DNA from: Granulimonas faecalis
Lineage (GTDB): Bacteria; Actinomycetota; Coriobacteriia; Coriobacteriales; Atopobiaceae
Direction: 5' to 3'
Length of the DNA stretch: 64,000 bases
Assembly: GCF_022834715.1 (NCBI RefSeq)
Contig: NZ_BQKC01000001.1
Span: forward strand, 346,501-410,500
Part shown: positions 11,985-17,834 of the stretch, piece after piece
How positions within the stretch are numbered: the stretch's first letter is position 1
Layout: every line of letters begins with the position of its first letter
Notes under the pieces: generated by a model
Database searches by the model: none
What the model was told of the DNA's origin: nothing
The model's input: the letters and a program-made list of their open reading frames with translations, nothing else
Program-made: the position numbers and the translations under genes

Positions 11985-12257
11985 CTACAGGAGAAGCAAG
12001 TAGAGTAGAGCGAATAGGACACTGATCACCGAGTCAAACGCCCGTCCTTGTTTTTTATAAATAAGTGAGCTTCCTAAATGGACGGCCACGACATTGAGGC
12101 CGCTCAAGAGAACTAAGGTGGTATGGTCAATGATGTGGAAGCAGTAGTACAGGATGCCGATCAGTACGCACACTGCTGCAATAGCAATGCCGCCCCACGA
12201 TAGATGACCGTTGCTCCACCCGATTTCAAGTTTATTTGCAATGCCGTTCCACGTCAT
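11985..12257 (-). CDS. Small multi-helix membrane protein, partner of secreted protein
   Basis: The 90-residue protein starts at the ATG at 12257, where CCAGGAGGGG lies just upstream. A longer in-frame start at 12299 has no such site. Three hydrophobic segments are visible: after LSWGG (IAIAAVCVLIGILYYCF), around LVLLSGLNVVAVHLGSS, and at the C-terminus (VISVLFALLYLLLL). It is not recognised as a known family. It lies 72 bp downstream of the secreted protein gene on the same strand, in AT-richer sequence than the flanks. It mirrors the gene pair at 1607-2444 in order, size and composition. An immunity or export-accessory role is inferred only. Confidence 0.7.
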   Translation of the reverse strand: MTWNGIANKLEIGWSNGHLSWGGIAIAAVCVLIGILYYCFHIIDHTTLVLLSGLNVVAVHLGSSLIYKKQGRAFDSVISVLFALLYLLLL

Positions 12258-12329
12258 AAGCCCCTCCTGGAAAAGGGCGGGTTGAAACGCTGTCGCCAAG
12301 CCGTTACAACCCGCCCATATGAAGGCGTT

Positions 12330-12923
12330 TTACTTCAAGCAGGTATAAAGGGTGTAGGAAGTTGCCGCAAGTGCGTCCCAGCTGTTGCCTGTATACCAAG
12401 CGCGTCCCGCCTCGATCATCCAAGTATATGCACTGAACAGGCAGTCCTTTTCCTTTTGGGTCAGATTGACCGCCATGCTGGCGCCGACAGGACGATTATT
12501 TCCGTATCCATGGGAGACGCACCAGCCCTTCCCATAAACAGAGAAGCAGTTCCCACGTTCGCGCTGAGGGCTGGCTTCGCTAGAGATCGAGTCCATATGG
12601 TAGGTACGATAATTTGAGGTCTCGCTGGCGTATGCTGCGACGGGGGCAGTGGAGAGGGCGCATGCGACTGCGAGAAGGGCTAAGCTCTCCCCGTTGCCGG
12701 AAAGGTGCGAGAAAAGGCTCTCGTCACCCTCCAGTTCTATGTCGTTGATGTGAGCTACCTCGAGGTCATGACAGCTGTAACCGGTAGCTTCTTCCACAGA
12801 ATCGGGGGATGTCGAGGATGAGGAGATTGCATGGGTGATATGTGTGATTGCAAGGGCGCAAAACGATATGGCTGCGATGGCAATGCAGATTTTCACCACT
12901 GGGCGTTTTCCGGGTAGGCTCAT
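12330..12923 (-). CDS. Secreted or membrane-anchored protein with four-cysteine C-terminal domain
   Basis: The 197-residue protein is unrecognised. The ATG at 12923 is chosen because GGAAGGAGCAGG precedes it. It has two hydrophobic segments, at about residues 8-30 and 79-98. The second ends in AYA/SE, a good signal-peptidase site near residue 99. The remaining 98 residues contain four cysteines (C126, C135, C161, C195), many Tyr/Trp/Gly, and no membrane helix, which suggests a small disulfide-bonded secreted domain released from a larger precursor. The gene is AT-richer than its surroundings. It is divergent from a response regulator gene 148 bp away, which may control it. Confidence 0.7.
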   Translation of the reverse strand: MSLPGKRPVVKICIAIAAISFCALAITHITHAISSSSTSPDSVEEATGYSCHDLEVAHINDIELEGDESLFSHLSGNGESLALLAVACALSTAPVAAYASETSNYRTYHMDSISSEASPQRERGNCFSVYGKGWCVSHGYGNNRPVGASMAVNLTQKEKDCLFSAYTWMIEAGRAWYTGNSWDALAATSYTLYTCLK

Positions 12924-13071
12924 TTCCTGCTCCTTCCGCCATGTGAGACGAGTGTCGGGTAAAGGGTCGGGCCATAAAACCGTGAAAAACAAAACAATGG
13001 CCTCAAGTTGCAAAACAGCATTGTGGCCCGAGGGGGAGGTGCGATAGTCTTGGAATAGTTGAGGGGGTGCC

Positions 13072-13779
13072 ATGCAGAGGATTCTCTATATCGAGGACGA
13101 CGACTCCCTGCGGGGCGCCGTGAGGCTGGTGCTGGAGAATGCGGGCTACGAGGCGGTGACCCAACCTGATGGCACGCAGCTTCTCGAGGCGCTTTTCCGT
13201 GGGGAAGAAGTCGGCTGCCACCTTATCCTGCTCGACATGGGGCTCCCCAAGATGGACGGCACGGCGCTGCTCCTCCGCGTTCGAGAGCGGTCCTGCGTGC
13301 CGGTGCTGGCCCTGTCGGGCCAAGACGACGAGCTGTCCGTCATCGACGCCCTGACCCATGGCTGCGACGACTATCTGACCAAGCCCGTGCGCCCGGCGCT
13401 CCTCCTTGCCAAGGTGGCGGCCCTCCTGCGACGGGCGCGCTTTGAAGGCGAGGGCGACGGCGCAAAGAGGCCGAGGGTCCTCGAGCTGGGCAACGTGCGA
13501 TGCGGGAAGGGGGAGTGTCGCATCGACGGCCTGCCCGTCGCCCTCACGCCGACGGAGCTGGAGCTGCTGCGCTACTACTTGGCGCGCCCCGACAAGACCG
13601 TCCCCCGCTCCCAGCTCCTGCTCGATGTGTGGGGCCTCCCCGACGGCGTCGAGAGCCGCACCGCGGACGAGATGACCAGGCGGTTGAGGCGCAAGCTCGA
13701 GCCGGCGGGGGCCTCGGTCTCCTTGAGGTCGGTCTGGGGTGTGGGATACCGCCTCGAAGGCCCCTGCGAAGAGACGTGA
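13072..13779 (+). CDS. OmpR-family response regulator
   Basis: The 235-residue regulator has an N-terminal receiver domain with acidic residues IEDDD at 8-12, phospho-acceptor D55 in LLDMGLP and K104 in YLTKPV. A C-terminal winged-helix domain (about 140-232) includes LTPTELELLRYY and a VWGVGYRLE ending. The ATG follows GAGGGGG. The kinase gene starts 7 bp after the stop. The divergent gene to the left encodes a secreted protein, so that pair is a plausible target. This is inference from layout. Confidence 0.93.
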   Translation: MQRILYIEDDDSLRGAVRLVLENAGYEAVTQPDGTQLLEALFRGEEVGCHLILLDMGLPKMDGTALLLRVRERSCVPVLALSGQDDELSVIDALTHGCDDYLTKPVRPALLLAKVAALLRRARFEGEGDGAKRPRVLELGNVRCGKGECRIDGLPVALTPTELELLRYYLARPDKTVPRSQLLLDVWGLPDGVESRTADEMTRRLRRKLEPAGASVSLRSVWGVGYRLEGPCEET

Positions 13780-13786
13780 GGGCCCG

Positions 13787-14835
13787 ATGGCGTCGTGGCG
13801 CGCAAGCCTTTCGGCAGGTTTGACCCGTTATCTGCTCGCCGGGGCGGCCTTGTGCTCGGCGTTGTACGTCGTGGGGCTTCTCGGTTTTGCGGGTGCCGCC
13901 CATGGGGCCCTCTCGGGCGATCCCGGGCCGTTCCTCGACACGGAGGTGCGGTCGGTGACCGTCGAGGAGGCGTCGCGGATGGGCCGGTCCGGTCGCGGGG
14001 ACGCCGGCCCCTATCTGGCCGATTTTTTCGCCGAGGTCGCGGAGGCCGGTCTGCGGCCTGACGCCGGAGCTATAGGGCGGGGGACAGCCTCGTGTTCTAC
14101 CGGGTGGTCCAAACGGGGGCCTCCGGCGTCGAGATCCGCTTCCTCGACTGCCACGAGGCGTTGCGGCTCCTTCGTGCCGTCAAGCTCGCGGCCGTCACGG
14201 TGCTGCTCGCATCCTTCGCCGCGTTTGCGGCCCTGGGCCGAAGGCTTGTAGGGGCTGTGGAGGGGAGGCAGGCCCTTTCCGACGAGATCGCGAGGCGCCT
14301 GCTCCATGACGTGAAAACGCCCCTTGCCGCGTTGCTGGCTTCGGGCGAGGGGGCCGCCCCGGGTGCGGCGACGTGCCCGGAGGGTGCGCTCGACGAGCTC
14401 GCCGAGGCGTTCGACCGCCTGCTTCTTCTGGGTGGCCCCTCCGGCGGCGATCCGTGTGCGACGGATGCCCGGGAGGTCGTCCTCGATGCGGCGCGCCTTG
14501 TGGACCGGGATGCGGAGGGGTCGGGCGGCCGCTTGGCGGTGGACGCTCCCGAGCCCGCCCGGGTCGTGTGCGACGGGCGGCGCGTCGCGGCCGTGCTCTG
14601 CTGTGTGGCCAAGGAGGCGCTGGCGGAGGCGGACGGATGCGCGCGGCTTTTCGCCCGTTCGGGCACGGCCGTGACGCTGGGGGTCTCGTGGGAGGTCGCA
14701 GCCGGGGTCCCGGGAAACGAGACGCTGGCACCCCTGCTCGAGCGCCTTCCTGCGGTGGAGGCGTGCGCGGTGGAGGCCGAGACGGCCGCCCGCCGTCGCC
14801 GGGTGTCGCTCGTCTACCCTCTCTCGCACGCCTGA
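13787..14835 (+). pseudogene. Sensor histidine kinase interrupted by a frameshift
   Basis: Two reading frames together make one kinase of about 348 residues. The first (from ATG 13787) carries a membrane helix (YLLAGAALCSALYVVGLLGF) and most of a short extracellular region. After about 14060-14090 the sense continues one frame over with YRAGDSLVFYRVVQ, a second membrane helix (VKLAAVTVLLASFAAFAAL) and an H-box RRLLHDVKTPLAALLA. A one-base indel between 14060 and 14090 would restore it. The ATPase half is degenerate: no clear N-box or DxGxG motif is seen. It is the partner of the response regulator 7 bp upstream. It could be a sequencing error, a real pseudogene or an atypical kinase. Confidence 0.75.
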
Positions 14836-15503: not shown

Positions 15504-17834
15504 ATGATTATGAGGAGCAGGTGGGGGGGAGGGGCCGTGGGCAAGCCTGCCGTGGGCGACGGGACGATCAGAGCCTTCTGTGAGACGGTCGCCCTGCTCC
15601 GGGAACGGCCCGGCCTCGCCTGGTCCATGGGTCCGTTGCCGGGTCCCGATGGCCGCACCTTCGGGGTCTGCGACCTCGACGGGTGCGTTGCCGTGAACGG
15701 CGGCTCGGGGCGGCAGGCCCACGGGCTCGCCTTCGTGGAGCACCTGCTGCGGTCCGAGGTCGAGCTCTCCCGTTGCGCCGACGGCTCGTGCTACCCGGTT
15801 CTCTTTGCCACGGAGGTCGAGGCCGGCCCCCACCGCCTGGCCTATGGCGAGCTCGTGGGCGCCGGGCGCATGGTGGCGGCCAACGGCCTGTGGTGCCCCG
15901 CCGCCCTGGACGCCGCCGTGGAGGCGGTCTTCTCGGGCGTCTCGGCCCTCACCGACAGCCTCGCCGCCTCCCGCTCCGGGGTGGTGCGGGTACGTCTGGA
16001 CGACCGCGACTGCGTCATGGCCTTCGTGCCTATCGGGAACACCGACGGGTGGTCCATGGTGTCGGTGATCCCCGACGACGTCATCATGGAGCAGGGCAAC
16101 GCCATCATCGGCACCTCGACGGTGGTGCTGTTCCTCGTGGTCCTCGTCGTGGGGGCGGCCGCCTTCTTCGGGCTTGCGGCCTTCCGGTTCACTCGCTCCA
16201 TGAGGGCCCAGGGCGCCGAGACCCGGGCCCGCGAGGAGCTCTTCTCGGTGCTGGCCAGCGCCACCGACGAGGTCTTCCTCATGCTGAGCCGCGACCCCGT
16301 GCGGGTGGACTACGTGAGCCCCAACGTGGGCCGGATCCTGGGCGTGGGGCCCGACGAGGTGCGTGCCGACTGCGCCGTGCTCGAGCTCGAGGACGCCGAG
16401 GGGCCCGTGGACACGGCGTCGCTCGACGACGGCCGCACCGTGGTGCGCGAGGGCCTGCGCCACAACCGGGCCACCGGCGAGCCCCTCTGGTTCACCGACA
16501 GCCTCTACGACGTGGAGGTCGACGGCGGCCGTCGCTGCATGGCGGTGCTGTCCGACCGCACCCGGGAGCGCCGCAACGAGGAGGTGCTGCGGGAGGCCCT
16601 CTCCGTGGCCGAGGTGGCCAACGAGTCCAAGAGCACGTTCCTGTCCAACGTGAGCCACGACATCCGCACCCCCATGAACGCCATCGTGGGCCTGGCCACG
16701 CTCCTCCTCCGCGACGCCGGCGACCCCGACCTCGTGCGCGACCACACCCGCAAGATCCAGGCCTCCTCCCTGCACATGCTGGGCCTGCTCAACGACGTCC
16801 TCGACATGTCCAAGATCGAGAGCGGCAAGACCACCCTCAACCTCTCGGAGTTCGAGCTCTCGGAGCTGGCCGAGGACGTGGTTACCATCGCGAGGCCCCG
16901 GGCCCTCGCCAAGGGCCAGGACTTCCGGGTCGACGTCTCCGGGGTCCGCGACGGTCTCGTGGTGGGCGACAAGCTCCGCATCAACCAGGTTCTCATCAAC
17001 ATCATCACCAATGCCGTGAAGTACACCCCCGAGGGGGGGCACCGTCGAGTTCGACCTCGTCCAGACGCCGAGCCCCCGGGCCAACTTCGTCTCCCTGCGC
17101 TTCACCGTGAGGGACGACGGCATGGGCATGGCCCCCGAGCTCATGGAGACGATCTTCGACCCCTTCACCCGCGAGGAGAGCTCGGTGACCAACCGGGTCC
17201 AGGGGACGGGCCTGGGCCTTGCCATCGCCAAGAGCCTCGTGGAGCTCATGGGGGGGGCGCCATCTCGGTGGAGAGCGAGGTGGGCCGGGGGAGCGCCTTC
17301 GTGGTGGACCTGGAGCTCAGGGTGGCCCGGCACAGGGACGGCCGCGAGTTCTTCGAGCGCATGGGCATCGACAGGGTCCTGGTGGTCGACGACGAGCGGG
17401 CCGTGTGCGACGAGGTCGTGGCCGTCATGGGCGACGCCGGGGTGGGGGCCGAGTTCGCCCTCACCGGCGCCGACGCCGTCTCCATGGCCGCGGAGGCCGA
17501 GGCGGAGGGCCGCGGGTTCGGCCTCGTCATCGTCGACTGGCGGATGCCGGCCATGGACGGGGCCCAGACGGCCCGGGCCATCCGCGATGTGGTCCCCCAC
17601 AACGTGCCGGTCATGGTGCTCACCGCCTCCGACCGCGCCGACGCCGAGTCGGCCTGCGACGGCGCCGGGGTCGACGGCTTCCTCCAGAAGCCCTTCTTCC
17701 TCTCGAGCCTGACCCTGCTGCTCGAGGAGCTCTCCGGCCACGGCGGGGAGGGCGCCTCGTCAGGCGTTGAACAGGCGGCCGGCGGCCCCGAAGATGTCGC
17801 GGCGGAAGAACACCAGCACGAATATGGCCAGTAG
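15504..17834 (+). pseudogene. Hybrid sensor histidine kinase disrupted at two G-tracts
   Basis: The domain order is sensor region, one membrane helix (about residues 210-235), PAS-like region, HisKA with NVSHDIRTPMNAIVG, ATPase domain and receiver (RVLVVDDER; acceptor in VIVDWRMP). The 7-G run at 17033-17039 shifts the sense frame by one. The ATPase part (DDGMGMAPEL, GTGLGLAIAKSL) then lies in another frame until the 8-G run at 17250-17257 restores the first. Uncorrected, residues between the two tracts are nonsense, although one long frame stays open across them. No N-terminal membrane helix is seen, so the start may also be affected. In-frame alternatives are ATG 15510 and GTG 15537. The 3' end overlaps the convergent gene by 75 bp. 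Confidence 0.8.

Follow-up and report, generated by a model that had tools for sequence, protein, structure and literature searches.

The DNA analysed here (64,000 nucleotides of Granulimonas faecalis, the window) carries a gene pair, divergent from an OmpR-family response regulator, that we read with about even confidence as a degenerate mobile bacteriocin-like cassette whose immunity-like gene and regulator appear to have been retained. Judged from sequence comparison, the 197-aa ORF of the pair is best read as a deletion fusion of two neighbouring genes in which the toxin part is probably disabled, and the best-supported reading of the gene content is that the immunity-like gene and the regulator would form the surviving functional unit, as in two related genomes (G027 and G028). 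The pair region is AT-rich (GC content of 51-56% versus about 70% in the surroundings, in 500-base windows from 12000 to 13249) and the 90-aa protein (11985-12257, minus strand) has three hydrophobic segments (residues 24-40, 50-66 and 74-90). Both properties are as the initial annotation had described them, and its divergent OmpR regulator is borne out by two Pfam domain matches (Table 1).

Table 1. Coordinates in the window of the gene pair, its parts and the divergent two-component genes.
Feature	Position	Strand	Description	Evidence
Fused secreted-type ORF, 197 aa	12330..12923	-	Thioredoxin-like N-terminal remnant, signal-peptide remnant and four-Cys core	Translation, homologues, N-terminal match
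Residues 1-80 of the ORF	12684..12923	-	Membrane anchor and start of a TlpA/thioredoxin-like protein, lacking the CxxC domain	HMM match
Residues 81-98 of the ORF	12630..12683	-	h-region and AYA site of the secreted protein's original signal peptide, lacking the basic n-region	Alignment to homologues, hydropathy
Residues 124-197 of the ORF	12333..12554	-	Core, G-N-C-x8-C-x25-C-x33-C-x2	Invariant columns, spacings, charge
Small three-TM membrane protein, 90 aa	11985..12257	-	Candidate immunity protein	Hydropathy; orthologues in G027/G028
TGTTTTG-N14-TGTTTTG direct repeat	12990..13017	-	Candidate regulator binding site	Conserved in G027/G028
OmpR-family response regulator, 235 aa	13072..13779	+		Pfam Response_reg 1.9e-20, Trans_reg_C 1.2e-16
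Sensor-kinase-like gene	13787..14835	+	Frame broken near 14060-14075	Three-frame translation; intact orthologues

The 197-aa ORF opens at an ATG (12921-12923) with an AAGGAG-type ribosome-binding site just 5' to it. Its cysteines (126, 135, 161 and 195, from the translation) are those initially described, and hydropathy confirms two hydrophobic segments (residues 10-26 and 81-97). The two-step processing via the internal segment that had been proposed for it finds a different explanation. Against an HMM of the thioredoxin-like proteins from six cassettes, the N-terminal 92 residues alone give E = 5.8e-6 and the whole 197-aa protein gives 2.1e-5; the match runs collinearly over residues 24-84 of the ORF and stops just before the expected CxxC. 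In 20,000 shuffles of that stretch the best score was 8.1, short of the true 10.8. Residues 81-98 align with the true N-terminal signal peptides of homologues, the window segment being internal and lacking the basic n-region found in most of them. Since the approximately 80 residues that precede the internal signal match a thioredoxin-like N-terminus, gene fusion explains the double signal, and because of this fusion the internal segment would be the secreted protein's own original signal peptide, the ordinary one of its homologues. Two-step processing of a double-signal precursor was rejected for the fusion on the strength of the HMM match and the shuffles. There is no thioredoxin-like gene 5' of the window ORF, and none of the cassette type was found elsewhere in the window genome (G000), G027 or G028. 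With two hydrophobic segments preceding the core in one chain, the topology makes release of the core doubtful and probably inefficient.

Among 140 surveyed genomes of the family, one held a strong relative of the 197-aa ORF (G126, E = 1.3e-14), a complete 137-aa stand-alone protein with its own Sec signal that aligns to residues 84-197 of the ORF only. An HMM of the window and G126 sequences recovered ten further members in the order (E of 7e-11 or better), and scanning contigs with the second-half alignment added one from an Erysipelotrichaceae MAG, where the full 197-aa ORF as query had given no relative, giving the second-half homologues a taxonomic range of Coriobacteriales and Erysipelotrichaceae. 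In a second Erysipelotrichaceae-group genome (G439, L079) there is also a weak partial match over the C-terminal 48 positions (E = 7.8e-7), possibly a truncated copy of a family member.

Among seven aligned sequences including that of the window, 17 columns are invariant, comprising all four cysteines and 13 other positions, a degree of conservation that on the alignment exceeds chance. The cysteines follow the pattern C-x8-C-x23-25-C-x30-37-C-x2-end, with an extra cysteine near the C-terminus in G126, and a conserved [RK]-x-[RK]-G-[NR]-C lies directly before the core. The net charge of the core is +2 to +6 in the five sequences examined and exceeds that of the whole mature part, so the part that links the signal peptide to the core has a net negative charge; in intact copies the precursor combines a mostly acidic pro-region with a cationic core. 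A Sec signal (basic and hydrophobic N-terminus, A-x-A-type site) is recognised by sequence features in G126, L064, G201 and G262.

Profile searches agree with the earlier statement that neither protein of the pair is a recognised one: the whole 197-aa ORF has no family match in Pfam or NCBIfam, the 90-aa membrane protein has none in Pfam, NCBIfam or PHROGs, and the secreted family gives nothing significant against Pfam, NCBIfam, PHROGs or PDB sequences. None of the bacteriocin models of Pfam and NCBIfam is significant for the family, the JUQZ_fam_ocin model matching a single member at E = 0.15, far below its cut-off. By pattern search the YGNGV/L-x-C box is absent from the window protein and four homologues, and the HGYGNN/HGFxNN stretch of the family bears a superficial likeness only to the class IIa box. 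Searches of plasmids, phages and viral contigs with the secreted protein gave no match, and a literature search for a bacteriocin of such a kind in Coriobacteriia found nothing relevant. Two AlphaFold predictions (pLDDT of 61) gave no informative fold match by Foldseek (best E = 3.4), and the C-terminal helical hairpin in one of the models is, at this pLDDT, a hint only.

The gene order around the homologues carries the functional reading. In each of the five intact loci outside the window (G126, L064, G201, G262 and G184) the secreted four-Cys gene is preceded 5' by a thioredoxin-like gene and followed 3' by a small membrane gene. The thioredoxin-like proteins (166-181 aa) are membrane-anchored and contain CxxC; they are identified as thioredoxins by Pfam AhpC-TSA/Thioredoxin_8 (3e-9), and their match to the ResA subfamily (7.5e-15) lies below the curated NCBIfam cut-off. 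The small membrane proteins (57-93 aa) have three TM segments in most cases. This is the arrangement of disulphide-bonded bacteriocin operons, which supports the antimicrobial-type locus with self-protection suggested initially and makes it the best reading. The window 90-aa protein agrees with the cassette small membrane proteins in position, size and topology only, no sequence homology between them being detectable (hhalign probability 0.5%).

To judge from its surroundings the cassette is mobile. The G126 copy (L042 1-9528) is placed like prophage cargo, on the opposite strand and with endolysin/holin-like genes of a prophage to one side and tail-region genes to the other, and the G262 copy is adjoined by genes of conjugation type, which encode a CHAP protein and an ATPase of the TraG type. 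A gene for a radical SAM/SPASM protein (L065 9560-10813) is divergent from the G201 cassette; the best match of this protein is to the StsB sactipeptide maturase model, far below cut-off. Seven further copies, in genomes that we infer to be Collinsella-like, are decayed cassette remnants, in which an intact ORF persists for the small membrane protein in six of the seven, for the secreted protein in one and for the thioredoxin-like protein in none. The dN/dS of the retained ORFs ranges from about 0.1 to just above 1. Given this range, and because the seven copies are close relatives and not independent events, the pattern is only a hint of selective retention of an immunity gene.

A different association is found for the membrane gene of the window. 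Among 392 genomes of the order, convincing relatives of the 90-aa protein occur only in G000, G027 and G028 (a fourth match, at 6e-4, covers part of a 283-residue frame), and relatives of the intact kinase-like protein occur only in the same three. G027 and G028 belong to another genus than the window genome; their orthologues of the 90-aa protein are 45% identical to it, and in both genomes the membrane gene and the regulator point away from each other at a shared site flanked by groEL and thioesterase genes, with no secreted gene between the two, so that this site keeps the two-component system and the membrane gene only. The co-occurrence concerns one clade and one site and counts as one evolutionary event. 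The TGTTTTG repeat lies in G027 and G028 at the same distance from the regulator ATG as in the window (period 21 versus 20). By chance, 1 of 20,000 random pairs had a 7-mer repeat in common. Local alignment of the divergent promoters alone reaches only moderate significance, its score being equalled in 7 of 3000 random pairs, and the direct repeat that they share carries more weight. The repeat is near-unique in these genomes, with one copy in G000, one in G027 and two in G028 (the second inside an apparent permease gene), which supports a regulator dedicated to the divergent promoter. Of the single system of four genes that had been proposed, the unit of membrane gene and two-component genes is supported in part, by the same three genomes, the same site and the promoter repeat, and the inclusion of the secreted gene is not supported: homologous loci have a small membrane gene beside every secreted gene and no two-component genes in the regions read, G027 and G028 show the reverse, and only the window has the secreted gene and the system together.

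The sequence of events that we propose begins with an intact cassette, from which the precursor would be exported by Sec and its signal peptide cut. The thioredoxin-like partner would set two disulphides (C1-C2 and C3-C4) and the pro-region would be cut near the [RK]-x-[RK]-G-[NR]-C junction, releasing a core, with a C-terminal part predicted to be helical and moderately hydrophobic, that may attack the membrane of related bacteria, with the small membrane protein protecting the producer. Antibacterial activity and immunity would be the corresponding properties of the cassette products. In the window, an in-frame deletion supported by the sequence would have removed the opening codons of the secreted gene together with the thioredoxin domain, fusing the remains. 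The promoter repeat and co-inheritance suggest that the TGTTTTG repeat is where the OmpR-type system binds, and that the small membrane gene, with the fused gene, is under its control, and the presence of system and membrane gene alone in G027 and G028 would be expected of a retained, inducible immunity. Extended to all loci, the proposal becomes more tentative, and we put it at somewhat less than even chances: a new family of Sec-exported, disulphide-stapled bacteriocins (C-x8-C-x23-25-C-x30-37-C-x2), each with its own oxidoreductase and immunity gene, carried partly on prophages and conjugative-type elements in Coriobacteriales and Erysipelotrichaceae, with the immunity gene of one clade placed under a two-component switch of its own, which persists once the toxin is gone.

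The kinase of the initial annotation stands in part. It has an H-box-like motif (HDVKTP/HEVKGP, found by eye), and G027 and G028 have intact 346-aa orthologues. In the window, the gene is split between two frames that switch near 14060-14075: one carries the N-terminal half, beginning at ATG 13787, and the other the half with the H-box, ending at 14835. The intact orthologue (L044 7882-8922) has no Pfam domain at E of 0.01 and no detectable ATPase (HATPase_c) domain, and HisKA reaches no better than E of 0.19 in the window fragment; given the lack of a detectable kinase domain, the label rests on position and the H-box-like motif. A hybrid sensor-kinase ORF nearby (15504-17834) contains an out-of-frame stretch at about 17040-17260, after which it returns to frame (paired small indels), either an assembly error or a recent double frameshift. 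That stretch makes small indel errors in the assembly possible and the kinase break especially suspect, and one could suppose that the fusion too is an assembly artefact, the strain truly possessing an intact three-gene cassette and an intact two-component system. We regard this as highly unlikely, for small indels cannot make a large in-frame deletion that joins two recognisable segments, and the thioredoxin-like gene is found nowhere else in the assembly.

Other readings accept the fusion or set aside the antibacterial role. The fused protein could have been kept for a new role, as a four-Cys protein tethered to the membrane, whether or not it is cut again at AYA, and the open frame, the intact cysteines and other invariant residues, the good ribosome-binding site and the conserved promoter repeat would all fit this; the fusion is, however, seen in one of the 13 loci, the core lies behind two hydrophobic segments and the adjacent kinase frame is also broken, so we consider a new role unlikely. 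Even less credence is given to the cassette being phage or conjugative-element cargo with another job, such as superinfection exclusion or an envelope-modifying pair. One copy does sit amid prophage lysis and tail-region genes and another beside conjugation-type genes, but secreted peptide antimicrobials are usually built in just this way, as a Sec-type pre-pro-peptide whose four-Cys core is cationic and which comes with an oxidoreductase of its own. That the adjacent kinase senses the four-Cys protein as a signalling peptide, which the membrane protein would help to process or export, appears just as improbable as the assembly artefact: the two-component system does adjoin divergently in the window and the promoter repeat is conserved, yet no such system lies in the regions read around the secreted homologues, G027 and G028 keep the system without the secreted gene, and one would not normally expect a pheromone to have a core of about 75 residues with four cysteines and an oxidoreductase to itself.

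The secreted family is one for which we found no covering family model, solved structure or paper. If antibacterial, it would represent a peptide weapon, mobile and shared between Coriobacteriales (including Collinsella-like gut genomes) and Erysipelotrichaceae, and would make it easy to test whether immunity is conferred by small membrane genes that outlast a decayed toxin. The locus also illustrates how an apparent 'two-signal' precursor may arise via deletion between adjacent genes.

Among known systems, the activity of pediocin PA-1 is raised by the thioredoxin-like partner PedC (PMC4919988) and that of gallocin A by the thioredoxin-like partner BlpT (PMC10100652), and the best-supported reading of our comparison is that the cassette would be functionally like these two pairs, while being unrelated to them in sequence and using a Sec signal instead. 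With the pediocin PA-1 operon (class IIa; PedB immunity, PedC) it shares a small cationic four-Cys peptide, a thioredoxin-like protein with CxxC that is dedicated to it and a small neighbour that presumably confers immunity (PMC4919988), whereas the YGNGV-x-C box is absent, the core is longer (about 75 versus 44 aa), a Sec signal and pro-region are present, no dedicated ABC transporter is seen and no sequence similarity was found. Gallocin A (class IIb; BlpT, GIP, BlpHR) is likewise disulphide-dependent and accompanied by a surface protein with a thioredoxin domain and by a small immunity protein, in a locus under two-component control (PMC10100652), but it is a two-peptide bacteriocin with double-glycine leaders, whereas the cassette encodes one Sec-type precursor and an OmpR-type regulator is found with the membrane gene in one clade only. 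As in the TlpA/ResA thiol-disulphide oxidoreductases, the first gene of the cassette encodes a membrane-anchored or lipoprotein-type thioredoxin fold with CxxC; in contrast to them, its product falls below the NCBIfam ResA cut-off and is tied to one neighbour gene, of which arrangement the window keeps the N-terminal part of the thioredoxin-like protein only.
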